Shown here in pieces: positions 904-64,000 of a stretch of DNA of 64,000 nucleotides. The notes beneath the pieces are model-generated. The model ran no database searches. It was given only the letters and a program-made list of their open reading frames with translations, and had not been told where the DNA came from. Each line of letters begins with the position of its first letter. Position 1 is the first letter of the stretch. This DNA comes from Lichenicola cladoniae. Its GTDB lineage: Bacteria > Pseudomonadota > Alphaproteobacteria > Acetobacterales > Acetobacteraceae. Location: contig NZ_CP053708.1 in the NCBI RefSeq assembly GCF_013201075.1, positions 1,615,501 through 1,679,500 on the forward strand. Reading direction: 5' to 3'. The translations under genes and the position numbers were made by a program.

Positions 904-1859
904 CCGAGCCGGCTGCCGAGTTCGCTTTCATCGCGCGGCATTTCAGGCCGCTGGCCGGGCCGGGCGGGCTGGCGTTGTCGGACGACGCGGCGGTCTTTCT
1001 GCCCCCAGCCGGGCGCGAACTGGTGATGTGCGCCGACGCCATGGTGTCGGGCGTTCATTTTCTTGCCGCGGATCCGCCGGACACCGTGGCGCGCAAGCTG
1101 CTGCGGGTGAACCTGTCCGATCTCGCGGCAATGGGCGCCGAACCGCTCGGCTACCTGATGACCGTGTCGGTGCCACCCGACCTGCCTCCCAACTGGTTCG
1201 AGGGTTTCGGCGCCGGGCTGGCGATCGACCAGGCCCAGTACGGTCTCTCGCTCTTCGGCGGCGACACCACCTCGACCACCGGGCCGCTGGTCCTTTCTCT
1301 CACGATCGTCGGCCATGTCGCACCCGGCGCCGCGCTGCGTCGCAACGGTGCGCAGGCCGGCGACGGTATCTGGGTGACCGGAACCATCGGCGACGGCACC
1401 CTCGGCCTGGCCTGCCTGACCGGGGAACTCGATGACGACACCGGGCAGTTGGCCGACCGCTACCGGCTGCCGCAGCCGCGCATGGGGATGAAGCTGGCCG
1501 GCGTGGCGCATGCGGCGATCGACGTGTCCGACGGGCTGGTGCAGGACCTCGGGCATCTCTGTCGCGAGAGCGGCGTGGCTGCCCGGATCGAGGCGGCCCT
1601 GGTGCCGGCGTCGGAGGCGGCGCGTCAGGCCGGTCCGGCCTGGCTCGAGCGCCGGCTGAGCGGCGGCGACGATTACGAACTTCTGCTGGCGGTGCCGCCA
1701 GGGGCAGAGGCGACATTGCTCGCCGAGGCAGGGGCCGCTTGTATCCGGGTGACCCGGATCGGCATGTTCGAAGCCGGCCTGGACGCGGTCCACGTGATCG
1801 CCCCGGACGGCACTGCGCTCATCTTCGAGCGTCCCGGCTGGAGCCATTTTCCCGGATAG
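900..1859 (+). CDS. thiL: Thiamine-monophosphate kinase ThiL
   Basis: ThiL phosphorylates thiamine monophosphate to thiamine diphosphate, the last cofactor-forming step. The protein (319 aa, normal length) shows the AIRS/PurM-like fold signatures: LSDDAAVF near residue 24, CADAMVSGVHF near 41, the GGDTT segment and DVSDGLVQDLGHL near 205. The GTG start at 900 overlaps the nusB TGA (GTGA), a common arrangement. It ends the nrdR-nusB-thiL unit. Confidence 0.94.
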   Translation: MTEPAAEFAFIARHFRPLAGPGGLALSDDAAVFLPPAGRELVMCADAMVSGVHFLAADPPDTVARKLLRVNLSDLAAMGAEPLGYLMTVSVPPDLPPNWFEGFGAGLAIDQAQYGLSLFGGDTTSTTGPLVLSLTIVGHVAPGAALRRNGAQAGDGIWVTGTIGDGTLGLACLTGELDDDTGQLADRYRLPQPRMGMKLAGVAHAAIDVSDGLVQDLGHLCRESGVAARIEAALVPASEAARQAGPAWLERRLSGGDDYELLLAVPPGAEATLLAEAGAACIRVTRIGMFEAGLDAVHVIAPDGTALIFERPGWSHFPG

Positions 1860-2299
1860 ACCCAATTGGCGGCATGGTACCTGCTCGACCGGGATGTGCC
1901 ATCGACGAGAAGAGAGCCAGAGCCAGATGCATGTGACCGCGCTGCCCGCCACCCTGCCGTCGCCAGCGGTGCCGGGTCATGCGCTCGACGCCGAGGCGTG
2001 CTGCATCGGGCAAATGCTGGTCGGAGCTCTCACGTTCGGCAGTGCAGCGGTAATTGGAGCGCGTCGATCCGCGCACGAAATGTTCCACGCGCGGTCGGGC
2101 GAGAGCATCGTGAATCGCGGCTTGCGCAATTGTAGCCTTCACCTCGGATCGGCGATAATGGTCGAACCGGGTTCGGAGCATGGGTTGGAAACTACCGGCA
2201 TGACCAAGCTCCGCACATACGATCCGCCGACCTCATCCGTGCGGGACAGTCGGCCATGATGATCGACAACGAGGACCGGCTGGTGCCCGGCGGCCCGGC
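1860..2299. other. Intergenic stretch with no convincing complete gene
   Basis: These 440 bp separate thiL from the amidase operon. A 121-codon frame (1894-2259, +) is open but resembles nothing I recognise. A second + frame, open from 2136 after a TAG and ending at the TGA 2301-2303 that overlaps the next gene's GTG, reads like real protein (GFGAWVGNYRHDQAPHIRS, then GQSAMMIDNEDRLVPGG). It could be the tail of a decayed gene that once preceded hpxX. No start with a ribosome-binding site was found for it. Confidence 0.4.
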
Positions 2300-2491
2300 G
2301 TGAGTAGTTCCGAGCCGGCCGACCAGGCCATCCTGGCCGCACAGGCGGCGCGCTTCCTCGGTCTTTCCCTGGATCCCGCGCATCTCGACGGGATCGCCGC
2401 CAGTCTCGAACTGCTCGAAAGCCACGCGGCCCGGGTGATGGCGATGGTGCTGCCGCACGATATCGAGCCGGCACCGGTGTTCGTCGCGTGA
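2300..2491 (+). CDS. hpxX: AtzG/HpxX-like DUF4089 small subunit
   Basis: A 63-residue all-helical protein of the DUF4089/AtzG type. AtzG is the small partner that forms a transamidosome-like complex with the amidase AtzE; HpxX is its counterpart in oxalurate/purine breakdown clusters. The sequence pattern AARFLGLSLDPAHLDGI....LELLESHAARV fits the family. It starts with GTG and its TGA (2489-2491) overlaps the GTG of the next gene, indicating coupled translation of the two subunits. The symbol follows the Klebsiella hpx naming; the substrate here is inferred. Confidence 0.82.
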   Translation: MSSSEPADQAILAAQAARFLGLSLDPAHLDGIAASLELLESHAARVMAMVLPHDIEPAPVFVA

Positions 2492-3894
2492 TCGACGCAA
2501 CGGTTCTCGCCGATGGTGTGCGCACCGGTCGATGGTCGGCGGTCGAGCTGGTGAGGCAGGCACTCGACCGGATTGGCCGGCACGACCCGCTGCTGAACTG
2601 CTTCACCCATGTCCGGTCGACCGATTCCCTTGACGAAGCCGCCGCGTCCGATGCGGCGCGCGCCAGGGGCGAGGTGCAGGGCCCGCTGGCCGGGGTGCCG
2701 TTCGCGGTCAAGAACCTGTTCGACGTGGCGGGCCACACCACGATCGCCGGCTCGCGGGTGCTGGCCGGCCATCCTCCGGCGGAGCGGGATGCGACCATCG
2801 TGGCCCGGCTACGGCAGGCGGGCGCGATCCTGCTCGGCCAGCTGAACATGGACGAGTTCGCCTACGGCTTCTCCACCGAGAACAGTCACTACGGCACCAC
2901 CGCCAATCCGCACGACCCGGACTGCATTGCCGGCGGTTCTTCGGGGGGATCGGCGGCTGCGGTGGCAGCCGGGCTGGTCGCGCTTAGCCTCGGGTCCGAC
3001 ACCAACGGGTCGATCCGGGTGCCGGCATCGCTGTGTGGGGTGTTCGGCCTGAAGCCGACCTACGGACGGTTGTCGCGCGCCGGTGCGTTCCCCTTCGTTG
3101 CCAGCCTGGACCATGTCGGTCCGTTCGCCCGGAGCGTGCGGGATCTCGCCCTGGCCTACGAGCTGATGCAGGGCGCCGACGATCGCGATCCGGTCATGGC
3201 CAGGCGAGGGCATGACCCGGCGCTGGCCGGACTCGGCGCCGGAACGGGCTTGCCGCCGGGCTTTCGTGTCGGGGTGCTGCAGGGCTGGTTCCGGCGAGGC
3301 GCTTCGGATCAGGCGCTGGCGGCGGTCGATCACGTCGCGCAAGCCCTGGCCCGGGCAGGCGCCATCGTCGAACCGGCTGTGCTCGAGGATGCCGAGACGG
3401 CACGCTCGGCGGCGTTCGTCATGACCGGCGCGGAGGGCGGTGCGCTTCACCTGCCCTGGCTGGCGACCGACGCGGGATCGTATGATCCGGCGGTGCGCGA
3501 CCGGCTGATCGCCGGGGCGATGATCCCGGCCTCGGTGGTGATCCAGGCGCAGCGGGTGCGCAGCCATTTCCGTGCGCAGGTGGCACGCTTGTTCGAAACG
3601 ACGGACCTTCTGCTCGCCCCGGCGACACCGTTCCCGGCGGTCCGGCGTGGACATGCGACGATCATGCTGGACGGGAAGCCGGTGTCCGCCCGTGCCAACA
3701 TGGGCCTCTACACCCAGCCGATCAGCTTCGTCGGCCTGCCGGTGGTGAACGTGCCGATCCAGCACGAGCAGGACCGGTTGCCGATCGGCGTGCAGGTGAT
3801 CACCCGGCCCTGGGCCGAAAGCCTCGGCCTGCGCGTGGCGGCGATCCTGGAGCGGGACGACATCACCCGGGTACGCGAGCTTGCCTATGACTGA
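2488..3894 (+). CDS. hpxY: AtzE family amidohydrolase (amidase signature enzyme)
   Basis: An amidase-signature hydrolase of 468 aa, the normal size. The Ser-cisSer-Lys triad is visible: Lys in FAVKNLFD (near residue 76), the glycine/serine-rich GGSSGGSAAAV loop (near 151) and the nucleophile Ser region GSDTNGSIRVPAS (near 171). The order small DUF4089 protein, AtzE-like amidase, HpxZ-like protein matches hpxXYZ of oxalurate catabolism and atzG-atzE-atzH of cyanuric acid/biuret breakdown. The most likely reaction is hydrolysis of a ureido or carboxybiuret-like amide. HpxW and AtzD/AtzF partners are not present here, so the substrate is open. Confidence 0.88.
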   Translation: MIDATVLADGVRTGRWSAVELVRQALDRIGRHDPLLNCFTHVRSTDSLDEAAASDAARARGEVQGPLAGVPFAVKNLFDVAGHTTIAGSRVLAGHPPAERDATIVARLRQAGAILLGQLNMDEFAYGFSTENSHYGTTANPHDPDCIAGGSSGGSAAAVAAGLVALSLGSDTNGSIRVPASLCGVFGLKPTYGRLSRAGAFPFVASLDHVGPFARSVRDLALAYELMQGADDRDPVMARRGHDPALAGLGAGTGLPPGFRVGVLQGWFRRGASDQALAAVDHVAQALARAGAIVEPAVLEDAETARSAAFVMTGAEGGALHLPWLATDAGSYDPAVRDRLIAGAMIPASVVIQAQRVRSHFRAQVARLFETTDLLLAPATPFPAVRRGHATIMLDGKPVSARANMGLYTQPISFVGLPVVNVPIQHEQDRLPIGVQVITRPWAESLGLRVAAILERDDITRVRELAYD

Positions 3895-3900
3895 TCACGC

Positions 3901-4305
3901 ATGAACGGCAAGGCCGGCGAGCTCGCGATCGACGATCCGGCGACGCTGGCGGAGGTGACCTCGCATGTGGCGCGCTACGAGGCGGCGTTGATGGCGAACG
4001 ATTTCGCCGTGCTGGACGAGCTGTTCCGGCACTCGCCGCTGACCCGCCGCTTCGGGGCGACCGAGCAGCTATACGGGTTCGAGGCGATCGCCGCCTATCG
4101 CCGGGACCGCCCGGGTGGCGCGCCGCCTCGTCGTATCCTGCGACAATCGATCACCACCTACGGCACCGATTTCGCCACCGCTGACATCGAGTTCCAGCCG
4201 ATCGGCACCGACCGGCTCGGACGGCAGACCCAGAGCTGGGTTCGCACCGGGAAGGGCTGGCGGGTCGTCTCCGCGCATGTCTCCTTCATGTCGGTCCCAG
4301 ATTAG
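3901..4305 (+). CDS. hpxZ: HpxZ/AtzH-like protein (SnoaL/NTF2 fold, DUF3225)
   Basis: A 134-residue NTF2-like protein of the HpxZ/AtzH family. AtzH is reported as a small amidohydrolase acting before AtzE in cyanuric acid degradation. Family features seen: VARYEAALMANDFAVLDELF near the start, the RFGATEQLYGFEAIAAYR segment and the final strand RVVSAHVSFM. It starts 6 bp after the amidase stop and completes the three-gene operon. No clear terminator follows. Confidence 0.85.
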   Translation: MNGKAGELAIDDPATLAEVTSHVARYEAALMANDFAVLDELFRHSPLTRRFGATEQLYGFEAIAAYRRDRPGGAPPRRILRQSITTYGTDFATADIEFQPIGTDRLGRQTQSWVRTGKGWRVVSAHVSFMSVPD

Positions 4306-6548: not shown

Positions 6549-7997
6549 ATGTCGATCAGGCGAGGGGTAGGCGCGGGTTTGGCCGCCCTGTTGTGCAGTA
6601 CGGCAGCACTGGCTCAGAAATACGATGGCAGCGGTTCGCCGACCTTCATCGCACATGATCTGCAGGAAGCGCTGGCGTCGGCCTATCTGACCAACCCGAC
6701 ATTGCAGGCCGAGCGAGCCGCATTGCGGGCGGTGGATGAAAACGTCCCGACCGCGGTTGCCGGATGGCGCCCGACGGTCTCGGTGACCACGAGCGGCACC
6801 GTCTATAACGGCACCTCGTCGACCACGTTCGCCGGCAACAACGGTACTGGCGCGGGAACGACGACGCAGAGACTTAGTGGCACGCTGGGCTACACGACCG
6901 GCGTCTCGATCAACCAGCCCCTCTACCAGGGTGGACGGACGACCGGGCAGACGCACCAGGCAGTCAACAGGGTCATGGCGGAGCGCGCCAACCTGATCGC
7001 CACCGAGGAGCAGGTGTTCGGCAACGTGGTCAACGCCTATGTCGGCGTGATCGAGGATCAGCAGCTTCTGCAGCTGCAGATCAACAACGAGAAGGTGCTC
7101 GAGGAGCAGCTCCGCGCCACCAACGACCGGTTCCGCGTCGGCGAGATCACCCGGACCGACGTCGCACAAGCCGAAGCCGCCCTGGCCAGCGCCCGCGCGG
7201 CCCGGCAGCAGGCGGAAGGCACCTTGCAGACGGCGCAGGCGACCTACACCCAGCAGGTCGGCAACGCGCCGCCGCCCAACCTGATCCCGCCGCAGCCGCT
7301 GATGTTGCCGGTCAAGGACCAGGAACATGCGGTCGCCGAGGCGGTCTCCAACAACCCGAACGTCATCAACGCCCTCTTCACCCAGTCCTCGCAGCAGGAT
7401 GCGGTGGACGTGGCGATGGCCGTGCTGATGCCGAAGCTCAACCTGCAGGGCCAGTATACCTACAGCAAGGACCAGGCCGCGGTTCAGTCGAAGACGGACG
7501 TCGAGGAAGGGCTCATCACCCTGACGGTGCCGCTCTACCAGGGTGGTGCCGAGTATTCGGCGGTCCGGCAGGCCAAGCAGACCCAGCAGCAGGGCCGGCG
7601 GCAGGTCGATATCCAGCGTCGGAGCGCTGCCCAGCTGGCGATCTCGAACTGGCAGAACCTGATCTCCTACCGCGCGTCGATCGACAGCAACCGCGCTGCG
7701 ATCCAGTCCAACATCGTCGCCCTCGACGGTGTCGAGCGGCAGGCGATCGTCGGCACGAGCACCACGCTGGAAGTGCTGCAGCAGCAGCAGACGCTGCTCT
7801 CGGCGCAGGTGGCGCTGGTGCAGAGCCTCAGCAACATGGTGCTGACCTCGTATGGCGTCGCCTCCGCGATCGGCCGCCTGACCGCACGCGACCTCAGGCT
7901 GAACGTGCCGCTGTATGACGAGACTGCGTACTACAACGCGGTCAAGGATCGGCTGTGGGGCCTGAACGACTACGCCGTGTCGCAACCCGGACGCTGA
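6549..7997 (+). CDS. tolC: TolC family outer membrane efflux protein
   Basis: An outer-membrane channel for type I secretion or drug efflux. The start ATG 6549 is chosen because GGAG lies about 9 bp upstream and the product begins with a clean Sec signal peptide (MSIRRGVGAGLAALLCSTAALAQ). Two OEP repeats are visible, each with the INQPLYQGGRT / VPLYQGG box and long Gln/Ala-rich coiled helices. Length (482 aa) is typical. No inner-membrane pump genes are adjacent; popZ and valS follow. Confidence 0.93.
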   Translation: MSIRRGVGAGLAALLCSTAALAQKYDGSGSPTFIAHDLQEALASAYLTNPTLQAERAALRAVDENVPTAVAGWRPTVSVTTSGTVYNGTSSTTFAGNNGTGAGTTTQRLSGTLGYTTGVSINQPLYQGGRTTGQTHQAVNRVMAERANLIATEEQVFGNVVNAYVGVIEDQQLLQLQINNEKVLEEQLRATNDRFRVGEITRTDVAQAEAALASARAARQQAEGTLQTAQATYTQQVGNAPPPNLIPPQPLMLPVKDQEHAVAEAVSNNPNVINALFTQSSQQDAVDVAMAVLMPKLNLQGQYTYSKDQAAVQSKTDVEEGLITLTVPLYQGGAEYSAVRQAKQTQQQGRRQVDIQRRSAAQLAISNWQNLISYRASIDSNRAAIQSNIVALDGVERQAIVGTSTTLEVLQQQQTLLSAQVALVQSLSNMVLTSYGVASAIGRLTARDLRLNVPLYDETAYYNAVKDRLWGLNDYAVSQPGR

Positions 7998-8000
7998 TGG

Positions 8001-8576
8001 TTGGCTGAAGCAGCCACCTTTCCCGCGGACGATTCGGACGGCTCGATGGAGACGATCCTGGCCTCGATCCGGCGGATCATCCGCGAGGACGATGTCGGGC
8101 CGACCGCCGGCCAGCCGGCATCCGGACCTCCGGCTACCGTGCCGGCCGCCGGGGAGGATGAGCTGCTGGTGCTGCTGCCATCGATGATGGTGCAGCCGGA
8201 TAGGGATGCACAGGCTGCCATGCCGATCGAAACCGTTGTTTCCGTGCCGCCCGGCATGAGCGCCGCAGCCCTGGCGACGGCGATGTTCGACGATCCGGTC
8301 CACGCTCCGGCGACTCCGGAAGCCCCTCGCCTGCTGGCCCCCGAGACACGTGCGGCGGCGGTGCAGTCGCTGGCTGCTTTGCAGGAGGCGGTCAGGGTCG
8401 AGCCGCAGTCGCCGGCCGGCCCGAACCTGCTGCGATCGGGTGGACCCACGCTCGAGGACCTGGTGCGTGACGAGCTGCGTGGCCAGCTGAAGCTCTGGCT
8501 CGACGCCAACCTGCCCGCGCTGGTGGAACGTGTCGTCCGTCAGGAGATCGAGCAACTGGTGCGACGTCCCACCTAG
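8001..8576 (+). CDS. popZ: Polar organizing protein PopZ (DUF2497)
   Basis: PopZ forms a polymeric matrix at the cell pole that tethers the chromosome origin through ParB and recruits signalling proteins. The N-terminal DUF2497 motif METILASIRRIIREDD is at residues about 16-31. A Pro/Ala-rich disordered linker follows, then the C-terminal helices LEDLVRDELRGQLKLWLDANL and LVERVVRQEIEQLVRR needed for assembly. The start is a TTG at 8001, only 3 bp after the tolC stop. The tolC-popZ-valS order is typical of alphaproteobacteria. Confidence 0.88.
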   Translation: MAEAATFPADDSDGSMETILASIRRIIREDDVGPTAGQPASGPPATVPAAGEDELLVLLPSMMVQPDRDAQAAMPIETVVSVPPGMSAAALATAMFDDPVHAPATPEAPRLLAPETRAAAVQSLAALQEAVRVEPQSPAGPNLLRSGGPTLEDLVRDELRGQLKLWLDANLPALVERVVRQEIEQLVRRPT

Positions 8577-8660
8577 CCGAGCCCGCCCATGCCGCAGGCG
8601 CGTTCGCCAAATGCGCCGAGGTGCCTTCACTCGCTGCGCGCGTTTCTCTAGCTTCGCCGC

Positions 8661-11366
8661 ATGTTGGACAAGAGTTTCAAGCCTGAAGAGGCCGAGGCCC
8701 GCCTGTATGCACTATGGGAGGCCGGTGACGCGTTCGCCGCCCGCCCGGACAGCGAGCAGGCTCCCTATACGATCATGATCCCGCCGCCGAACGTCACCGG
8801 GACCCTGCATATGGGTCACGCACTGACGATGACGCTGCAGGACATCCTGGTGCGCTGGCGCCGGATGCAGGGCCGCGACGCGCTGTGGCAGCCGGGTACC
8901 GATCATGCCGGGATCGCCACGCAGCTGGTGGTCGAGAAGCAGCTCGACGCCGAGGGGGTGCGGCGCACCGAGCTGGGCCGCGACGCGTTCGTCGAGCGTG
9001 TCTGGAGCTGGAAGGAACAATCCGGCGGCAGCATCACCCAGCAGCTTCGCCGCCTCGGATCGTCGCTGGACTGGAAGCGCGAACGCTTCACCATGGATGC
9101 CGGCCTCTCCGACGCGGTGCGCGAGACCTTCGTCACGCTGTATCGCGAGGGCCTGATCATGCGGGCCAAGCGCCTGGTGAATTGGGACCCGTCGTTCCGC
9201 TCGGCCATCTCCGACCTCGAAGTCGAGAGCCGGGAGATCCGCGGCAGCCTCTGGTACATCCGCTATCCGGTCGAGGGCATCGACGGTCGCTCGGTGACCG
9301 TGGCGACCACCCGGCCGGAAACCATGCTCGGCGACTCCGCGGTCGCGGTGCATCCCGATGATGCCCGCTACACCGACCTGGTCGGCCGCTTCGTCATCCT
9401 GCCGCTGACCGGCCGCCGTGTTCCGATCGTTGCCGACACCTACTCCGATCCGGAAAAGGGCACCGGTGCCGTCAAGATCACCCCGGCGCACGACTTCAAC
9501 GATTTCGCGGTCGGCGAGCGGCATCGCTTGCCGACGCCCTCGATCCTCGATGCCAACGCCCGCATCCTGCTGGACGAGATCGCCGACGAGCTGCAGTCGG
9601 TCGATGGCCTCGCCGACCCGGCCTTCGTGCTGGCGCTCGCCGGCCAGTCGCGCGAGGCCGCCCGCAAGGCGATCGTGGCCGAGCTGGACCGGCTCGAGCT
9701 GCTCGAAAAGATCGAGCCGCACGTCAACCAGGTACCGCATGCCGAGCGCAGCGGCGCCGTCGTAGAGCCGCGCCTGACCACGCAGTGGTATTGCGACGCC
9801 GCCAAGCTGGCCGGCCCCGCGATCGAGGCGGTCGAGAGCGGACGCGTCGAGTTCGTGCCGAAGCAGTGGGAGAACACCTTCTTCGCCTGGATGCGCGAGA
9901 TCCAGCCCTGGTGCATCAGCCGGCAGCTCTGGTGGGGTCACCAGATCCCGGCCTGGTACGGGCCGGACGGCCACGTGTTCGTGGCGCATGACGAAATCCA
10001 GGCCGCCGATGCGGCGCTGCTGCATTACGGCAGCAACACTCTCCTGACCCGCGACGAGGACGTGCTCGACACCTGGTTCTCGTCCGCGCTCTGGCCGTTC
10101 TCCACGCTCGGCTGGCCGCACAAGACGCCGGCGACGGTGGCCGACCTCGCCCGGTACTATCCCGGCGACGTACTGGTCACCGGCTTCGACATCATCTTCT
10201 TCTGGGTGGCCCGGATGATGATGATGGGGCTGCACTTCATGGGCGAGGTGCCGTTCCGGCAGGTGTTCATCCATGGGCTGGTGCGCGACGAGCGCGGCCA
10301 GAAGATGTCGAAGAGCAAGGGCAACGGCATCGACCCGCTCGACCTGATCGACAGCTACGGCACCGACGCGCTGCGCTTCACCGTGTGCGCACTGACCGGC
10401 CAGGGCCGCGACGTGAAGCTCGGCGTGAAGCGGGTCGACGAATATCGTTCGTTCGTCACCAAGCTCTGGAACGCCGCGCGTTTCTGCGAGATGAACGACG
10501 TGAAGCCGGTGGCCGGGTTCGATCCGGAAACCGCCAAGGGCAAGCTCGCACGCTGGATCCTCGACGACGCCGCCATTGCCGTCGCCGATGCGACCGCAGC
10601 ACTCGAAGCCTACCGGTTCGACGAGTATGCAGCCGTTTCCTACAAGTTCACCTGGTATCGTTTCTGCGACTGGTTTCTCGAGTTCGCCAAGCCGGTGTTC
10701 AACAGCGGTGATAGCGAGGAAGCGGTCGAGCTTCGCGCAGCCACGGCACATGTGCTGAGCACGATCCTGCGCCTGCTGAACCCGGTGATGCCGTTCGTCA
10801 CCGAGACGCTATGGGCGGAGTTCGGCTACGGGCCGGAAGGCAGCCTGATCCGGACCGCGTGGCCGGTCCCGACGCGGCTCTCGGACGCGCAGGCGACTGC
10901 GCGCGAGCTGGACTGGGTGATCCGCTTCATCGGCGAGATTCGCGCGGTGCGGGCCGAGATGAGCGTGCCACCCGCCAAGGTCACGGAACTGCTGTTGCGT
11001 GACGCCAGCGAAACGACCCTGGCGCGTGCCGCGACCTGGTCCGAGGCGATCGGTCGCATGGCGCGCGTGTCCAGCGTCTCGGCACTGGTCGGCGAGATGC
11101 CGCACGGCGCCGCGCAGGCGGTCGTGGACGAGACCACGCTGATCCTGCCGCTTGCCGGCATCATCGATCTCGATGCCGAGCGTGCACGCCTGCAGAAGGA
11201 TCGCGCACGTGCCGTCGACGAGGCCGGCAAGGTCGAGCGCAAGCTGGCGAACGCCGATTTCGTCGCCCGCGCGAAACCGGAAGTGGTGGAAGAGAATCGT
11301 GAACGACTCAACGCATTCCAGCAGGAAACGGAACGGCTCGATGCGGCGCTTCGTCGGCTCGGATAG
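8661..11366 (+). CDS. valS: Valyl-tRNA synthetase
   Basis: ValS (901 aa, class Ia) charges tRNA-Val. The HIGH motif is HMGH at residues 50-53 after PPPNVTGTL, and the KMSKS motif is at 548-552. The central CP1 editing domain (TTRPETMLGDSAVAVHPDD) is intact, and the C-terminal coiled-coil arm (LDAERARLQKDRARAVDE and onward) is present. ilvD starts 12 bp downstream, so the two form an operon that links a branched-chain tRNA synthetase with a branched-chain biosynthesis enzyme. Confidence 0.98.
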   Translation: MLDKSFKPEEAEARLYALWEAGDAFAARPDSEQAPYTIMIPPPNVTGTLHMGHALTMTLQDILVRWRRMQGRDALWQPGTDHAGIATQLVVEKQLDAEGVRRTELGRDAFVERVWSWKEQSGGSITQQLRRLGSSLDWKRERFTMDAGLSDAVRETFVTLYREGLIMRAKRLVNWDPSFRSAISDLEVESREIRGSLWYIRYPVEGIDGRSVTVATTRPETMLGDSAVAVHPDDARYTDLVGRFVILPLTGRRVPIVADTYSDPEKGTGAVKITPAHDFNDFAVGERHRLPTPSILDANARILLDEIADELQSVDGLADPAFVLALAGQSREAARKAIVAELDRLELLEKIEPHVNQVPHAERSGAVVEPRLTTQWYCDAAKLAGPAIEAVESGRVEFVPKQWENTFFAWMREIQPWCISRQLWWGHQIPAWYGPDGHVFVAHDEIQAADAALLHYGSNTLLTRDEDVLDTWFSSALWPFSTLGWPHKTPATVADLARYYPGDVLVTGFDIIFFWVARMMMMGLHFMGEVPFRQVFIHGLVRDERGQKMSKSKGNGIDPLDLIDSYGTDALRFTVCALTGQGRDVKLGVKRVDEYRSFVTKLWNAARFCEMNDVKPVAGFDPETAKGKLARWILDDAAIAVADATAALEAYRFDEYAAVSYKFTWYRFCDWFLEFAKPVFNSGDSEEAVELRAATAHVLSTILRLLNPVMPFVTETLWAEFGYGPEGSLIRTAWPVPTRLSDAQATARELDWVIRFIGEIRAVRAEMSVPPAKVTELLLRDASETTLARAATWSEAIGRMARVSSVSALVGEMPHGAAQAVVDETTLILPLAGIIDLDAERARLQKDRARAVDEAGKVERKLANADFVARAKPEVVEENRERLNAFQQETERLDAALRRLG

Positions 11367-13842: not shown

Positions 13843-15924
13843 TCAGCTGGAAACACCGATCGCCGGGTCGGTGACGCTGTCGCGGCCGGTTTCGACATGA
13901 CCGGCGAGCTGGCACCGGAATACGGCGTCCTCCTCCACGGTGACGGTGAGGTCATACCAGCCGAACAACGACGACGACTCCAGCTTGATCTGGTGTTTTT
14001 CGCCGGGGGTCAGCGTGTGCCGGTCGATATGGCCGCTATAGGCGTTCAGGACGTGGACGCGAACACTGAACCGACCGCGGTTGCGCAAATTCACCACGAC
14101 GCCGCAATTGCCTTCGTCCTCGTCCGCATCGACGACCACGTCGGCGTTGGCGAAGCTGGCGACGGCGCCCCGGAAGGTGCGCAGGAACCCGTTCGGGCCA
14201 TAGACCGAGAGATCGTATGCGCCCGCGGTGGCAGCCAGCCAGCTATCCTCGAGCTTCACCTTCGGCTCGACCGTGTAGCTCCGCGGCACGTCGAGAGGAT
14301 TGGTCGAGCGCACCTGGTAGACGGTGCCGACCGAGCCGTCGTTGCCGAACGCGATGCTGAACGAGCCGGCTTTCATGTCGGCATGTCCGTGCACGGACGA
14401 GCGATAGGGCAGGGCGCGTGCGCGGCGGATACCGCGTTCCTGTGCCGGCAGTGCCTGCACCACGGGCGGCAGCGGCACGTAGTCCGGATGACGCAGCGCA
14501 TCCACCGGCTTGAAGGACGTCGTCGACGAGAGCGGGGCGATCGTCCGGTTCGGGCTCCGGAAGTCGAAGGCCGAGGTCAGGTCGCCGGCGACCGCGCGAC
14601 GCCAGGGCGTGATGTTCGGCTCGACCAGGGCCGGGTTGTGGGGGCCGAAGCGCTGCTCGATGAAGCGGATGATCGAGGTGTGGTCGAACAGCTGGCTATT
14701 CACCCAGCCGCCCTTGCTCCAGGGCGACACCACGATCATCGGCACGCGGGCACCCAGCCCGTACGGACCGGCCATGGCGTCGGTACCGCCGGCATAGATC
14801 TCGTTGACGATCGAGACGGTCGACTGGCCGTGCGCCTTGGTCTGCGGCGGGGTCGGCGGCACCATATGATCGAAGAAACCGTCATTCTCGTCATAGGTGA
14901 TCAGGAAGACGGTCTTGCTCCAGACGTCCGGGTTCGCGGTCAGGATGTCGAGCATCTGCGATACGTACCAGGCGCCGTAGTTGGCCGGCCAGTTCGGATG
15001 CTCGGTATAGGCTTCCGGGGCGACGATCCAGGACACCGGCGGCAGCTTGCCCTTGCTCACGTCGCTGCGGAACTCGTCGAACATCGTGCCGGAGACGGCG
15101 ATGTCGGTGCCGGTCTTGGCGCCGACGGCGAGCGGAGAGCCGACGGCGGCGTTCTGGTACTGGTGGAAATACAGCAACGAGTTGTCGCCGTAATTGCCGA
15201 TATAGGCGTTCTCGCCCCAACCCCAGCCGCCTCCGGCGGTCAGGCCGGTGCCGATATCCTGGTAGATCTTCCAGCCGATGCCTGCAGCCTGCAGCCGCTC
15301 GGGATAGGTCGACCAGTCATAGCCCGCCTCGGCATTGTCGATGACCGGGCCACCGTTCTTGCCGTCGTTGCCGACCCAGCCGGTCCACATGTAGTAGCGG
15401 TTCGGGTCCGTCGGGCCAAGCAGCGAGCAATGGTAGGCGTCGCAGATCGTGAAGGCGTCGGCCAGCGCGTAGTGGAACGGGATGTCGTTGCGGTCGAGAT
15501 GGGCCATCGTCGTGGTGCCCTTGTTCGGCACCCACTGGTCCCAGTTGCCCTGGTTCCAGGCAAGATGGGTGGTTTCCCAGTCATGCGGCAGGTCCTGCAG
15601 GAACTGCATCCCCAGATCCGGCGCGGTCGGATGGAACGGCAGCACATAACCGGCGCCGAAAGGCTGGTACCAGACCGGCTTGCCGGACGGCAGGGTGACG
15701 GCGCGGGGATCGTCGAAGCCGCGCACGCCCTGCAAGGTGCCGAAATAATGGTCGAACGAGCGGTTCTCCTGCATCAGCACGACGATATGCTCGACGTCGT
15801 TGATGGTGCCGGTCCGGTTGTTCGCCGGGATCGCGAGCGCCCGGCCGATGCTCTGCTGCATGGTGGCGGCGAACGCACCCGATCCAAGCAATTTCAGAAA
15901 GGAACGACGATCGGCTGGTTGCAT
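13843..15924 (-). CDS. Phosphocholine-type phospholipase C, Tat-exported
   Basis: A 693-aa acid-phosphatase-superfamily phospholipase C that hydrolyses phospholipids such as phosphatidylcholine outside the cytoplasm, releasing phosphocholine. The N-terminus is a twin-arginine signal (DRRSFLKLLGSG). The catalytic entry motif VVLMQENRSFDHYFGTLQGVRGF follows at about residues 48-70, and later YDENDGFFDHM is the metal-site region. The C-terminal beta-domain repeats (DUF756 type) are present. A Pho box lies 58 bp upstream, so expression under phosphate starvation is likely. A Tat metallophosphoesterase is divergently placed. Confidence 0.92.
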   Translation of the reverse strand: MQPADRRSFLKLLGSGAFAATMQQSIGRALAIPANNRTGTINDVEHIVVLMQENRSFDHYFGTLQGVRGFDDPRAVTLPSGKPVWYQPFGAGYVLPFHPTAPDLGMQFLQDLPHDWETTHLAWNQGNWDQWVPNKGTTTMAHLDRNDIPFHYALADAFTICDAYHCSLLGPTDPNRYYMWTGWVGNDGKNGGPVIDNAEAGYDWSTYPERLQAAGIGWKIYQDIGTGLTAGGGWGWGENAYIGNYGDNSLLYFHQYQNAAVGSPLAVGAKTGTDIAVSGTMFDEFRSDVSKGKLPPVSWIVAPEAYTEHPNWPANYGAWYVSQMLDILTANPDVWSKTVFLITYDENDGFFDHMVPPTPPQTKAHGQSTVSIVNEIYAGGTDAMAGPYGLGARVPMIVVSPWSKGGWVNSQLFDHTSIIRFIEQRFGPHNPALVEPNITPWRRAVAGDLTSAFDFRSPNRTIAPLSSTTSFKPVDALRHPDYVPLPPVVQALPAQERGIRRARALPYRSSVHGHADMKAGSFSIAFGNDGSVGTVYQVRSTNPLDVPRSYTVEPKVKLEDSWLAATAGAYDLSVYGPNGFLRTFRGAVASFANADVVVDADEDEGNCGVVVNLRNRGRFSVRVHVLNAYSGHIDRHTLTPGEKHQIKLESSSLFGWYDLTVTVEEDAVFRCQLAGHVETGRDSVTDPAIGVSS

Positions 15925-60198: not shown

Positions 60199-61080
60199 AT
60201 GAGCACGCCAGCCGACCGCCATCTGCTGATCTTCGGCCTCGGCTATTCCGCCCTGGAAGTGGCCAGGCTGGCGGTCAAGGCGGGCTATCGCGTGACCGGA
60301 ACGACCCGGCGTCCCGACCTGCAGGCCCCCGCCGGCGTGGCGCTGGTGCGGCCGGAGTCGGCGCTGGATCTGCTCGACGGCGTGACCCACCTGCTGGCCG
60401 GCGCCCCGCCCGGCGCGGACGGCGACCCGATCCTGGCGCTGCTCGCGCCCCACCTCGATGCGTGCCGGCCCGGCTGGATCGGCTATTTCTCGACCACCGG
60501 CGTCTATGGCGATCGCCAGGGCGGCTGGGTCGACGAGAACACCGAACCCGCGCCGACCGGACCGCGCGGCACCCGCCGCCTGGAAGCCGAACTGGCATGG
60601 GAAAAGTTCGCCCGCCGCACCGGCGCGCGGCTCGACCTGCTGCGCATCGCCGGGATCTACGGCCCCGGCCGCAGCGCATTCGACAGCCTGCGCGCGGGAA
60701 CGGCACGGCGCGTGGATGCGCCGGGACACGCGTTCGGACGCATCCACCGCGACGACATCGCGGGGGCGACGCTGGCCGCCATGCACACGGATGCCGGCCG
60801 GGACGAACACGGGCGCCGAGTGCTGAACCTCAGCGACGACCTGCCGGAGGAGAGCGCGGTGGTGACCGCGGCGGCAGCCCGGATGCTCGGGATGGAGCCG
60901 CCGGTGGCGGTGCCTCTGGAAGAGGCGCTGGCGGGGATGAGCGAGATGGGGCGGAGCTTTTGGGCGGAGAACCGGAAGGTGGCTAGCCGGATGACGCAGG
61001 AGTGGCTTGGGCGGGAGTGGTCGTATCCGAGGTTTCGGGAGGGGCTCACCGCCATCCGCATGACCGAAGCAGAGATGTAA
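60199..61080 (+). CDS. NAD-dependent epimerase/dehydratase-like protein (YeeZ-like)
   Basis: A 293-aa atypical short-chain dehydrogenase/epimerase. The Rossmann motif is degenerate (IFGLGYSALEVARLAVKAGYRVTGTTRRP), and the active-site region YFSTTGVYGDRQGGWVDE and RIAGIYGPGRSAFDSLRAG resemble the E. coli YeeZ group. The substrate is unknown. It is the last backbone gene before the AT-richer region. Confidence 0.85.
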   Translation: MSTPADRHLLIFGLGYSALEVARLAVKAGYRVTGTTRRPDLQAPAGVALVRPESALDLLDGVTHLLAGAPPGADGDPILALLAPHLDACRPGWIGYFSTTGVYGDRQGGWVDENTEPAPTGPRGTRRLEAELAWEKFARRTGARLDLLRIAGIYGPGRSAFDSLRAGTARRVDAPGHAFGRIHRDDIAGATLAAMHTDAGRDEHGRRVLNLSDDLPEESAVVTAAAARMLGMEPPVAVPLEEALAGMSEMGRSFWAENRKVASRMTQEWLGREWSYPRFREGLTAIRMTEAEM

Positions 61081-61419
61081 GGGCTACTGCTAAAAAGATC
61101 TGAACTGGATATGTAGTTCGGAAAGAAAAGCGCACTGGTGGCTAAGCACGGTGATTAAACCTTCAGTCGCGACGGGCAGCTTTTTGTTCGCGGACATGAC
61201 CAGGAGTCGGGTTGTAGAGTGAGCGAATACTGAAGCCTAAAAAACAAGTAAGCAAGGCATTAACGACGAGACAATTGATAATAGATCCTGTGAAATAAGT
61301 ATCTTTCGATGCCGTCGGGGAAAGCCGAAGAGACAACCCTTTACAAAATTCCGGTCTAGATCCGGAGCCTATTGCGTCGGATGGGACTACCTTCCCGTGG
61401 TATATGATAATTCAGGATT
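61081..61419. other. AT-richer non-coding stretch at island edge
   Basis: No ORF with a usable ribosome-binding site, tRNA or clear repeat was found. Composition changes visibly just after the epimerase stop, marking the left edge of an acquired segment. A structured RNA belonging to the reverse transcriptase system cannot be excluded. Confidence 0.5.
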
Positions 61420-61722
61420 TCAAAGCGCTGGCTGCAATCGCATCGCCCTGGCCGGTTGTCGTGAAGCCAGAAAACAGCAGTTATCTCTGCTTCGCAACGG
61501 GTAAAACCGAAAGAAAATTAAATGATCGATGCCGACCGTCGAATCAATGTCGCCGGGAAAAAATGAAATGACCCGCGTCGGCAATTCCCGCCGCATCTCC
61601 ACATAATCTACAATCAGGTGTTCAATTGCTGCAAGTCGCGGCTGAGGATGACCAAGATGGAGGGGAGACTCACTCCGAGCAATATCGAAGCAGGGCTTAA
61701 CAATCATCTTGCCTCGCTTCAT
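61420..61722 (-). CDS. Small unknown ORF downstream of reverse transcriptase
   Basis: A 100-codon frame starting MKRGKMIVKPCFDIARSE. AGAAGG lies about 5 bp before the ATG, a good ribosome-binding site, and the gene is on the same strand 78 bp after the reverse transcriptase stop. No domain is recognised; it is not hydrophobic and has three cysteines. It may be an accessory protein of the reverse transcriptase, or a remnant. Confidence 0.45.
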   Translation of the reverse strand: MKRGKMIVKPCFDIARSESPLHLGHPQPRLAAIEHLIVDYVEMRRELPTRVISFFPGDIDSTVGIDHLIFFRFYPLRSRDNCCFLASRQPARAMRLQPAL

Positions 61723-61800
61723 CGTTACCTTCTAGACTAGAAAAAAATAGAGAAACACTCATAATCTATTAAACAGGAACGGCCCTGGAGTAAGATATAT

Positions 61801-63603
61801 TTAGATGCTAAGCCGCTTCGCAATATCTGAATAATAAGCATCTTTCCAAGCTAGCACGTGATTGTTCTTCAACGTTGCAATCTGCGTGGGAGGAACCGCT
61901 TTATTTTTGAGAGCTGAAAGAAGACACAAAAATTTCGGATGAGTAATGCCGGTTCCACGTGAGGGATTGGTCGCTTTCAGGCTGTCATACATGGAGTTAA
62001 AGACGTTTGGGTCGTTGGCCAATGCATCATGAAATCTGCTAACGTCCCTTACCCCATGATTTACAGCCTGATTTATAAGTGTGTAATAGCTAGATTTCTC
62101 CGCGATATCTGCAAACAGGGGTGAGAATGACCCTACGAGCCTGCCCATGCGCTCATGAGAAGCCCATAAAGCCTGAGTGGCTTGTATCGTATCTAGCAGG
62201 GCTTGCGTCGTATCGTATTTAGATTGCAGCCACATCTTACAGTAAAGGCCAAAGTATGTTTGAACATCGCACGCCGCTTGGACGCGCATGATATGATCAT
62301 GGCGCTTTCCTTTTCTGGGAACAAGTGCTTCGAGCAGATAGTTGACGAGATCTACCCGTCCGGCATCATCGACAAGTAGCGGTGACCTAGCACACTCCGC
62401 AGCCATCTTTGCCAAAGAAATAGAGAAGTCAGACCGCATTATGTAGCTACATACATTTTCTCTTACTGAGGGGCGGTTAAGAAAGACCCTTTTCAAATCT
62501 TCAGTATCGAGTATTGCTCCTGTTTTTGCAGCAAGATTTATCCATCGCTTTAAGACCTTGTCTCCGTTGCCATGATCGAAAGACTTTTTTGCAAGTCCGG
62601 ACGATACGGCCTTTTCGATGCGGGCAACCTCGACGGTGATCTGTTTTCCGCTCGCGACCTTTAAAGCAATGTTTTCAGTAAGCTTATCAAGTTGAGAATT
62701 CTGAAATATTCGAAAGTGTTTTGCGGCAGCATCTTTGCGTAGAATCAGTGTTTTTCCACTGTTTAGCCGAACCTGTTTTGTTTGTAGAACTAGGTCCATC
62801 GCTTTGAGAACTTGTTTGGCGTCGGAGATCCTGTCGACACCCACGTCGATATCATCCATAAATCTAACGAAATCCCGGTTGGGGTCGCTGGCTAGAAATT
62901 TATCGAGCTCATAAAGAAAACAGTGCGCGAGCAAGCGGGGCGCATCAAGGTTCATTTGTGGCAGTCCGATTTCAACACGAGGCATATAATCAGGCTGCCA
63001 AAGAAGGCTGCTCAGCACATGAATAAGCATGTCTAAAACACACTCTTCGACCCCTGAAATCGCCGATATCACGTTTCGAAGGTGGGTATAAGAGATGGAA
63101 TCATAGTAATTTGATATGTCGGTGACGACTATATAGTTCCGATTTGCAGAGAAGTTGAACAACTCCCGTTGAAAATTTAGCCAGGCAGGGATTGAACCAT
63201 ATTGGCTCTTCTGTATTGAGAATTTATGGTTCTTGGGCTCAAAGAAAGCGCATTTCGTTGGCTCTTTTCCTTTTACCTCGGTGTATAGCGCATCAGATAA
63301 ACACTGTAAAACGATGGCATCTTTAACAGAGGGGATAACCAGCTGCCGGCAAAGCCCCTTGCTCTTCTCGACTAGTATTCGTTGAGCACGTTCTGGAACA
63401 TAGTCACCGGCTAAGATCAAACGTGAAAGCTTCTGGCACTCGGCCTTCCTTGCAACGTGAAAGTCGAGGTGTTCAATTCCGTCATTTAAAAACTGCTGTC
63501 GCATATATACTCGGACTTTGGTTGTCCAAATCTTTTCCAGATTTGACGGAGAAAATATTGTTCTCAGCGGGGCCGAGCGGGTATCAAAGTTTGGAGACTT
63601 CAT
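61801..63603 (-). CDS. Stand-alone reverse transcriptase (Abi/unknown-group type, putative phage defence)
   Basis: A 600-aa RNA-directed DNA polymerase. Motifs: RQLVIPSVKDAIVLQ (86-100), motif A YIVVTDISNYYDSI with Asp162 and Asp168, motif B-like VEIGLPQMNLDAPRLLAH (from 210), motif C FMDD (248-251, in place of the common YADD), and a motif D-like NSGKTLIL. A C-terminal helical half of about 300 residues follows. There is no maturase, HNH or integrase domain and no group II intron or retron structure was recognised. It therefore resembles the Abi-like and unknown-group reverse transcriptases tied to phage defence. Base composition is clearly AT-richer than the neighbours. The exact group needs a profile search. 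Confidence 0.85.
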   Translation of the reverse strand: MKSPNFDTRSAPLRTIFSPSNLEKIWTTKVRVYMRQQFLNDGIEHLDFHVARKAECQKLSRLILAGDYVPERAQRILVEKSKGLCRQLVIPSVKDAIVLQCLSDALYTEVKGKEPTKCAFFEPKNHKFSIQKSQYGSIPAWLNFQRELFNFSANRNYIVVTDISNYYDSISYTHLRNVISAISGVEECVLDMLIHVLSSLLWQPDYMPRVEIGLPQMNLDAPRLLAHCFLYELDKFLASDPNRDFVRFMDDIDVGVDRISDAKQVLKAMDLVLQTKQVRLNSGKTLILRKDAAAKHFRIFQNSQLDKLTENIALKVASGKQITVEVARIEKAVSSGLAKKSFDHGNGDKVLKRWINLAAKTGAILDTEDLKRVFLNRPSVRENVCSYIMRSDFSISLAKMAAECARSPLLVDDAGRVDLVNYLLEALVPRKGKRHDHIMRVQAACDVQTYFGLYCKMWLQSKYDTTQALLDTIQATQALWASHERMGRLVGSFSPLFADIAEKSSYYTLINQAVNHGVRDVSRFHDALANDPNVFNSMYDSLKATNPSRGTGITHPKFLCLLSALKNKAVPPTQIATLKNNHVLAWKDAYYSDIAKRLSI

Positions 63604-63678
63604 GTTAAGCAGCGGCCCATTAGTTACGTAGTATGAGTAGGTTAGAGGGAGTCTTCCTGCGTGATCGGGGTTCTACCC

Positions 63679-63843
63679 TCAGCAGTCATAAAGCCTGGTA
63701 AAAGACGGACCACGGTAGCCAACGAATTTCTGCATGTCTTGCAATCGGTCCCCGTTTTGACGACATGAAAAAATGTCGCTCGTATCAGTATGTCCAAAAT
63801 TCGTCGCATTAGCCAATGCCAGCGGCGTATTTCCAACGAACAT
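63679..63843 (-). CDS. 54-codon ORF with one ankyrin-like repeat, upstream of reverse transcriptase
   Basis: Translating the minus strand from ATG 63843 gives MFVGNTPLALANATNFGHTD and a tail ending TRLYDC before TGA. GNTPLALA....FGHTD fits the ankyrin repeat consensus G-TPLHLAA---GH-D. GGAGG lies 7 bp before the ATG, an excellent ribosome-binding site, and a stop codon directly precedes it. It ends 75 bp before the reverse transcriptase start on the same strand. It could be a tiny accessory protein or the remnant of a larger ankyrin protein. Confidence 0.45.
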   Translation of the reverse strand: MFVGNTPLALANATNFGHTDTSDIFSCRQNGDRLQDMQKFVGYRGPSFTRLYDC

Positions 63844-64000
63844 TTAACTGCCTCCGGTCCAATCTGCCGACGGCGTCGTGCGGCTAGTGCTGCCCCGCCG
63901 CGGCCGGAACGGTGGCCCGTCATTCTTATTCCCGGGGATGGCTTGATCGAGATAGTGTACATCCGCTGTGCCGCTTACGGATTGGACGGAAAGGCACCGC
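63844..64000. other. Right window edge, no gene assigned
   Basis: The sequence returns to GC-rich composition at about 63.87 kb. A promoter for the minus-strand reverse transcriptase unit may lie here, but no convincing -35/-10 pair was identified. Confidence 0.4.

Follow-up and report, generated by a model that had tools for sequence, protein, structure and literature searches.

A UG13a reverse transcriptase in a low-GC island of Lichenicola cladoniae, probably a single-gene anti-phage enzyme

Locus and low-GC island

The window analyzed in this study is a stretch of 64,000 nucleotides (nt) from Lichenicola cladoniae (contig NZ_CP053708.1, positions 1,615,501 to 1,679,500). At 61 kb, the guanine-cytosine (GC) content falls from 0.72 to 0.47 for the last 3 kb, where three minus-strand open reading frames (ORFs) lie, at 61420–61722 (100 amino acids, aa), 61801–63603 (600 aa), and 63679–63843 (54 aa). 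Both the AT-richer patch and the three same-strand ORFs are as a preliminary description of the sequence had reported. The 600-aa ORF encodes a reverse transcriptase (RT) of class UG13a (UG, unknown group). UG13a is probably a stand-alone anti-phage enzyme, because its relatives are single-gene insertions at sites where sister genomes keep anti-phage genes.

The gene preceding the three ORFs was used as a query in 30 genomes (own included) and gave a match in 22; 19 loci of other genomes were compared. Nine of the 19 show an empty site, in which related DNA ends at most at window position 61057 and restarts beyond the window end, at 9451–9773 of locus L002 (L002 position equals window position minus 60000). 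In L079, L080, and L082, L002 1020–1057 is joined to 9455–9477. For the remaining 10 loci, the right flank is absent within the 1.5 kb examined. Based on the nine empty sites, genes that are close neighbours elsewhere are separated here by an island of about 8.4 kb, whose left part (61057–64000, no strand assigned) lies in the window and which continues to about 9451 of L002. In two of the nine empty-site loci, stretches of 58 and 106 nt also match the interior of the island, at L002 5049–5156.

The island also encodes a transposase (DDE_3, expect value (E) 1.6e-36), which we take to be of the IS630 type, and a formate/nitrite transporter (E 1.4e-49). The rest of it consists of stretches devoid of long ORFs and of ORFs with no family match; two ORFs of 101 and 214 aa at its far end (L002 8409–9313) match no family above the cut-off. 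At a threshold of 1e-4, none of 10 proteins around the RT (nine backbone proteins and the island transporter, taken as a control) matched PADLOC. Collectively, the GC content and the empty sites in related genomes support horizontal acquisition of the UG13a gene, as the preliminary description had proposed.

A full-length UG13a reverse transcriptase

Based on its end-to-end profile match, the 600-aa ORF is a real, intact member of RT_UG13a. It matches the PADLOC profile RT_UG13a (PDLC03749) with E 3.8e-209 and 694.5 bits, residues 1–596 aligning to positions 1–587 of 589, and we found no difference from the class apart from the length of 600 versus 589. The next PADLOC classes are UG21 (E 1.2e-34, 117.9 bits), UG19 (2.1e-28), and UG9 (6.7e-24), followed at a distance by the profiles of UG17, that is, defence-associated reverse transcriptase (DRT) 10 (E 1.1e-18), and Drt4 (E 2.6e-9). 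The preliminary description had assigned the protein to the UG/Abi-type defence RTs, and the profile search that it had proposed bears this out over the full length. The UG classes, including UG13a, reportedly come from Mestre et al. 2022. RT_UG13a has no DRT number in PADLOC 2.0.0, and no functional study of UG13 RTs was among the papers that our literature search covered, although the original UG/Abi classification may say more; the main text of the myRT paper contains no occurrence of "UG13" (PMC8934634).

To compare residues, we aligned the window RT with 10 relatives of 25–60% identity. This alignment includes the plasmid-record relatives L013, L014, and L015, which the structure models leave out, while the frame-split L016, the partial L098 (residues 1–235), and the near-duplicate plasmid matches H3, H6, and H7 enter no alignment. 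The RVT_1 core (residues 131–289, 62737–63213, minus strand like all features of the gene) matches Pfam PF00078 with E 2.4e-6 and 27.9 bits, just under the gathering score of 29.6. Within it, the catalytic Asp162 of motif A (TDIxxYYD; 63118–63120) is kept in 10 of the 11 sequences, that is, in all that cover the position, and Asp250 and Asp251 of the FMDD box (residues 248–251, 62851–62862) are invariant in 11/11. An all-helical, alphaRep-like C-terminal region follows at about residues 321–586 (61846–62643) in the AlphaFold2 model. Asp162, the FMDD box, and the long helical C-terminus had all been named in the preliminary description, and all three are confirmed.

Behind the helical region, Tyr591 (61831–61833) of the motif D588-x-x-Y591 is invariant in 11/11 sequences and is a candidate priming residue by likeness to DRT3b and DRT9. 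The motif lies nine residues before the end in the window protein and three before it in L010 and L097. Tyr68 is likewise conserved in the 10 aligned sequences that cover it. For the window RT against three relatives, the nonsynonymous divergence (dN) is 0.35–0.39 and the synonymous divergence (dS) is saturated, which, along with the profile match and the alignment, indicates an intact gene.

The RT belongs neither to a group II intron nor to a retron, two identities that the preliminary description had named as speaking against its view. No Rfam intron or retron match was found in 60900–64000, and the NCBIfam models group_II_RT_mat (78 bits, cut-off 300) and retron_St85_RT (21 bits, cut-off 235) stayed far below their cut-offs.

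One-gene insertions in relatives

UG13a genes are one-gene insertions in Bradyrhizobium, in Azospirillum, and in the genus of genome G736. The tightest limits come from genome G1271, which is called Bradyrhizobium here because it was sampled within the same genus as Bradyrhizobium sp. CCGUVB4N. In its locus L097, the sister match stops at 2102, where the rpoD terminator ends, and starts again at 4086–4099, with the gene at 2187–3983; in the sister locus L047, only 17 nt lie between the two insertion limits. Based on these limits, the insert measures about 1994 nt around a gene of 1797 nt, with 84 nt before it and up to 113 nt after it. Similarly, in CCGUVB4N (L011), the sister match runs to 7880–7887 and resumes at 9849–9861 around a gene at 8001–9800, and in the sister locus L037 the resuming gene stands directly behind rpoD. 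For Azospirillum B510 (L013) compared with A. lipoferum (L099), the insert spans at most 7814–9864 and the gene 8001–9803. In G1280 (L101, reversed), the uvrA-side match ends at 1326–1330 and resumes, by L023 only, at 3347, with the gene at 1427–3256. The limits in G736 (L023) are looser, leaving 186 or 319 nt before a gene whose start codon is uncertain and 147 nt after it.

Among 11 loci, no neighbour protein is common to different sites; the two rpoD loci share neighbours with each other, as do the two uvrA loci, and beyond that there is only the ABC-ATPase likeness of UvrA. Neither a partner gene nor a flanking RNA is conserved among the relatives compared.

The RTs of the two Bradyrhizobium rpoD loci are 67% identical in amino acids, and each is 66–68% identical to the copy at another locus (L010), whereas the two rpoD regions are 86% identical in nucleotides. 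Separate arrivals at one rpoD site are therefore likelier than descent from a single insertion. As a separate observation, a stretch of about 40 nt of the rpoD terminator in L011 (7844–7883) is repeated at 14140–14180, at the far end of the 6.3 kb that lie between rpoD and the gene usually next to it.

Slots behind rpoD and uvrA

We used the 3' end of rpoD as a query, and 24 of 26 Bradyrhizobium genomes gave a locus (L027–L050), two of which hold UG13a. From the other 22 loci, 11 proteins of eight loci, picked for low GC, were scanned. The scans of this and the following slot were restricted to ORFs that were long or low in GC, a choice that favours matches, and many proteins were clipped at the 1.5-kb locus end; the fractions given here thus come from a selected set. 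The rpoD slot contains an ABC-3C system (L032; CTD9 7e-29, MC5 2e-39), a type IIG restriction-modification (R-M) gene (L038; 7e-152), TcmP (L030 and L043; 3e-33 and 2e-38, PDC-M30A), HTH_VI (3e-30) together with a retron-type RT (4e-15, clipped by the locus end and under the NCBIfam cut-off) in L049, and a KAP NTPase (L050; 5e-30, PifA 2e-24). Known or candidate defence genes thus occupy the slot in at least six loci besides the two with UG13a, at least 8 of the 24 in all.

Similarly, 23 relatives in the genus of G736 gave a locus behind uvrA (L053–L075), and 20 proteins from 19 of them were submitted. Nine of the 19 gave matches at PADLOC E < 1e-9, each to a different family: DzbA, beta, PDC-M55C, dCTPase, UG13a, AriA/OLD-like, UG17, PsyrT, and MTase_II. 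One further locus has a weak match (PDC-M63B, 1.8e-5), and UG13a is likewise present in the uvrA slot of G736. In Azospirillum, the interval corresponding to the RT contains, in the A. lipoferum 4B plasmid (L099 3140–5647), a lone gene of 835 aa that has no PADLOC match and resembles nSTAND3 below threshold (E 0.0066).

Collectively, the rpoD-3' and uvrA-3' slots appear to be defence hotspots in Bradyrhizobium and in the genus of G736. Defence hotspots defined by their flanks are an established idea; no pertinent paper was among the matches listed in a literature search for such sites near rpoD or uvrA. This replacement within the same slot supports a defence role of UG13a, through the location of the relatives rather than of the window copy. 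The anti-phage role proposed in the preliminary description is hence strengthened insofar as relatives share two slots with defence genes, whereas the slot of the window copy gives no such sign and, as far as tested, lies outside defence islands. A lone gene that replaces known systems at a fixed point is a stronger argument than loose proximity to a "defence island". If the two slots prove general, they would be places to look for further one-gene systems; two long, unannotated genes of low GC in the slot behind rpoD, at L029 2295–3523 and L039 1–1479, are candidates for unknown defence genes.

Predicted structure and likeness to known systems

An AlphaFold2 model built from eight sequences has a mean predicted local distance difference test (pLDDT) score of 80 and a predicted TM-score (pTM) of 0.79. 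It contains only helices from residue 290 to the end, and residues 114–137 and 202–225 are poorly modelled. No HEAT or alphaRep profile of Pfam matched the UG13a RT. Among the best 50 Foldseek rows for each of two models, the query TM-score (TMq) is 0.36–0.47 for DRT4 (UG15), 0.39–0.40 for DRT6, 0.32–0.46 for AbiK, 0.32–0.38 for AbiA, 0.28–0.39 for Abi-P2, and 0.27–0.30 for DRT9.

DRT4 and DRT6 resemble UG13a as lone RT genes of 500–600 aa and are among its best full-length fold matches, but they differ from it in sequence class, and the match of UG13a to Drt4 profiles is no better than E 2.6e-9. AbiK and Abi-P2 share the combination of an RT-like domain and a helical domain. However, the priming residue of AbiK is reportedly Tyr44, near the N-terminus, whereas the most conserved end tyrosine of UG13a is the C-terminal Tyr591. 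A Y44F variant of AbiK appears in the source that describes protein-primed, template-independent synthesis by AbiK and Abi-P2 (PMC9508834). A review calls DRT4 and DRT6 single-gene systems and DRT4 also template-independent (PMC13213688).

By described layout, DRT3b (UG8) is similar to UG13a in having an RT, a helical domain (alphaRep in DRT3b), and a C-terminal tail with an invariant tyrosine. In DRT3b, the RT covers residues 1–322 and alphaRep 323–621, and priming occurs at the invariant Tyr666 of 667 (PMC13174585). According to the same source, the Class 1 UG RTs studied so far have an alphaRep domain and template-independent synthesis. DRT9 probably primes at C-terminal tyrosines (PMC12483538). 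In contrast to UG13a, which stands alone, DRT3b acts with DRT3a and an RNA. DRT10 (UG17) occupies the same uvrA-3' slot as UG13a in a sister genome (L069/L110), and it differs in having a second ORF and non-coding space, neither of which UG13a has.

Flanking mini-ORFs and flanking RNA

The preliminary description had treated the two small ORFs as genes. The 100-aa ORF (61420–61722) and the 54-aa ORF (63679–63843), both on the minus strand, are probably not real genes, judging by their chance-level lengths and the lack of family and homologue. When 61081–61800 was dinucleotide-shuffled 500 times, 38 shuffles contained an ATG ORF of at least 100 aa; for 63604–64600, a stretch that extends past the window end, 489 of 500 shuffles contained one of at least 54 aa. 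The 54-aa ORF is moreover overlapped by a longer one (106 aa) in another frame. Neither gave a PADLOC match, a match above the Pfam cut-off (one chance match, E 0.11, for the 54-aa ORF), or a tblastn match in 72,556 plasmid records. In 96 loci, the 54-aa ORF has only chance-level matches (E >= 0.15) and the 100-aa ORF none, so homologues of the RT occur without either small ORF. The label "ankyrin-like" for the 54-aa ORF goes back to a single GNTPLALA string, and no ankyrin model matched. Ribosome-binding-like strings do precede both ORFs by eye, as had been said, and we take them as no proof of genes. As partners of the UG13a RT, the mini-ORFs were rejected because of the chance length and the lack of homologues in the sets searched.

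Described template RNAs measure 280 nt in DRT2 and 188 nt in DRT9 (PMC12489045) and 137 nt in DRT10 (PMC12632851). The tightest UG13a insertions (L097, L101, and L011) leave 84–120 nt before the gene and 48–113 nt after it, less than any of these RNAs, and the spaces must also contain transcription and translation signals. The uvrA slot can hold larger systems, because the UG17 cassette there (G1292, L110) has a second ORF and 243 nt of non-coding space before the next ORF of at least 70 aa. Its second ORF is presumably SLATT-like, by position and look.

Flanks of up to 2.5 kb in nine loci, less where a contig or locus ended sooner, had no blastn match at E 0.01 and, with the threshold relaxed to E 10, only scattered ones at chance level. 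MAFFT alignments of 450-nt flanks, made for two groups, contained no block that looked conserved by eye, and Rfam gave one chance match only in 60900–64000. For folding, pieces of 120 nt from window 61081–61800 and 63604–64100 were compared with 60 shuffles each on both strands. The lowest z-score (z) is −2.82, for the plus strand of 61081–61200, which adjoins the end of the preceding gene, and the 90 nt upstream of the window RT have z +0.67. Across 10 loci, z ranges from −2.04 to +2.07 upstream (90 nt) and from −2.74 (L101) to +1.29 downstream. A structured RNA in 61081–61419 or 63604–63960, as the preliminary description had suggested, thus finds no support from folding or Rfam. As a partner of UG13a, a flanking structured RNA was rejected because of missing conservation, no more than a chance Rfam match, little room, and unremarkable folding.

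Interpretation and alternatives

We consider, with a probability of about 0.6, that UG13a is a single-gene anti-phage system, a DRT acting as a template-free polymerase of the AbiK/DRT4 kind. Upon phage infection, UG13a would polymerize DNA without a nucleic-acid template, by analogy with AbiK, DRT4, and DRT3b. Synthesis might start on a tyrosine of its own chain, for which Tyr591 is suggested as the best candidate, a C-terminal priming residue. The DNA product or a DNA–protein adduct could then block phage replication or stop the cell. More tentatively, at well under even odds, UG13a may be an unnumbered one-gene DRT that begins template-free DNA on Tyr591 and perhaps follows a sequence rule of its own, like DRT3b, and a one-gene cassette that spreads through the rpoD and uvrA exchange slots of Bradyrhizobium and at least one other genus.

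Several observations weigh against a template-free defence enzyme. All full-length TM-scores are below 0.5 and did not gain with the better model. Group II RTs come first in other comparisons: by Foldseek E-value, a group II intron RT leads in both models; the RT core alone fits maturase RT domains best (target TM-score, TMt, 0.56–0.68); and group II RTs are on top in a profile search of PDB sequences. The nearest PADLOC classes after UG13a are UG21, UG19, and UG9, and UG13a is at most a candidate member of UG Class 1, by layout and fold likeness. Regarding location, 15 related genomes have no stretch below 0.5 GC in the first 1200 nt of the slot of the window copy (composition only; L078 covers only 262 nt, and L079 falls to 0.41 after 1200 nt), and the window copy is therefore not assigned to a recurrent hotspot. 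In the rpoD slot, two of the eight scanned loci (L029 and L039) have no Pfam, PADLOC, or NCBIfam match, and in the uvrA slot 9 of the 19 have no defence-family match, one of them carrying a Schlafen AlbA_2 domain. Regarding RNA, 18 of the 20 flank pieces fold unremarkably and the other two somewhat more stably than their shuffles (z −2.74 downstream in L101, z −2.04 upstream in L011), and an RNA from elsewhere or overlapping the UG13a coding sequence is possible.

Such an RNA would make UG13a an RNA-templated, Class 2-like DRT, whose template could be very short, lie within the mRNA of the RT, or come from another locus. The profile neighbours include UG17/DRT10 and UG9, DRT10 needs just 137 nt, and a C-terminal priming residue also occurs in the RNA-templated DRT9 and DRT10. 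However, the three tightest insertions leave the small spaces given above, the flanks of nine loci have no nucleotide conservation and upstream folding is scattered around zero, and the structural fit to DRT9 is worse, so that we regard this explanation as unlikely. It is more improbable that the window gene has real ancestry but no present function, as what is left of a transferred island in decay. The transposase, the ORFs lacking family matches, and the stretches lacking long ORFs in the 8.4-kb island would suit a relic, as would the frame-split Sinorhizobium copy (L016), whereas the window gene is open over 600 codons, keeps the invariant residues, and has a dN of 0.35–0.39 against saturated dS. 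Least probable is a self-mobile retroelement, like those of group II-like RTs, inserting beside housekeeping-gene terminators, with defence genes merely sharing the site: a lone gene directly behind the rpoD terminator or behind uvrA would fit this, and so would the probable repeated arrival in Bradyrhizobium, where the two copies are as far apart as each is from the other-locus copy, but R-M, ABC-3C, and other non-RT genes enter the same slots, so that the site rather than the RT explains insertion, nine loci share no flank sequence, no intron RNA lies beside the window gene, and the class is rare and patchy, with one copy each in the seven positive genomes listed (G1271 and G1280 outside this count).

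For a single-gene anti-phage UG13a, the tight insertions predict that one gene suffices, which makes it a cheap candidate for testing. The class itself was already catalogued, without a functional study in the literature searched; new here are the one-gene unit with too little room beside it for a template RNA of the usual flanking kind, the two apparent defence slots, and the candidate priming residue. DRT10 adds one more kind of DNA product to those of the numbered systems, and DRT1–9 make several quite different ones (review PMC13213688).

Distribution of UG13a

UG13a occurs, own genome included and at strict cut-offs, in 3 of 398 genomes of the phylum and 1 of 385 of the class, and in none of 14 control genomes. 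Closer genome draws gave 1/87, 1/246, 1/200 (own), and 3/391, and a scan of genome contigs gave three UG13a loci. Among 72,556 plasmid records, seven cover at least 80% of the protein, and the window RT is the sole match in its own genome at E 0.001. A phage origin was considered and rejected: 50,697 phages gave one weak record, and viral contigs gave nothing by protein search and three weak RT-domain matches by alignment.

The closest relatives (58–60% identical) are from Azospirillum sp. B510, G654, and an Acetobacteraceae metagenome-assembled genome. Those of Hyphomicrobiales, Bradyrhizobium, Sinorhizobium, and G1280 are 36–43% identical, and those of G736 and Leptospira 25–30%; the G736 copy still matches RT_UG13a with E 1.3e-202. 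In Sinorhizobium sp. M103 (L016 5807–7593), the UG13a match runs across two frames, as if the gene were broken, unlike the open K101 copy. On a Leptospira weilii plasmid, about 160 nt separate the end of an annotated restriction endonuclease gene (L015 5245–5838) from the distant UG13-like RT that follows it.

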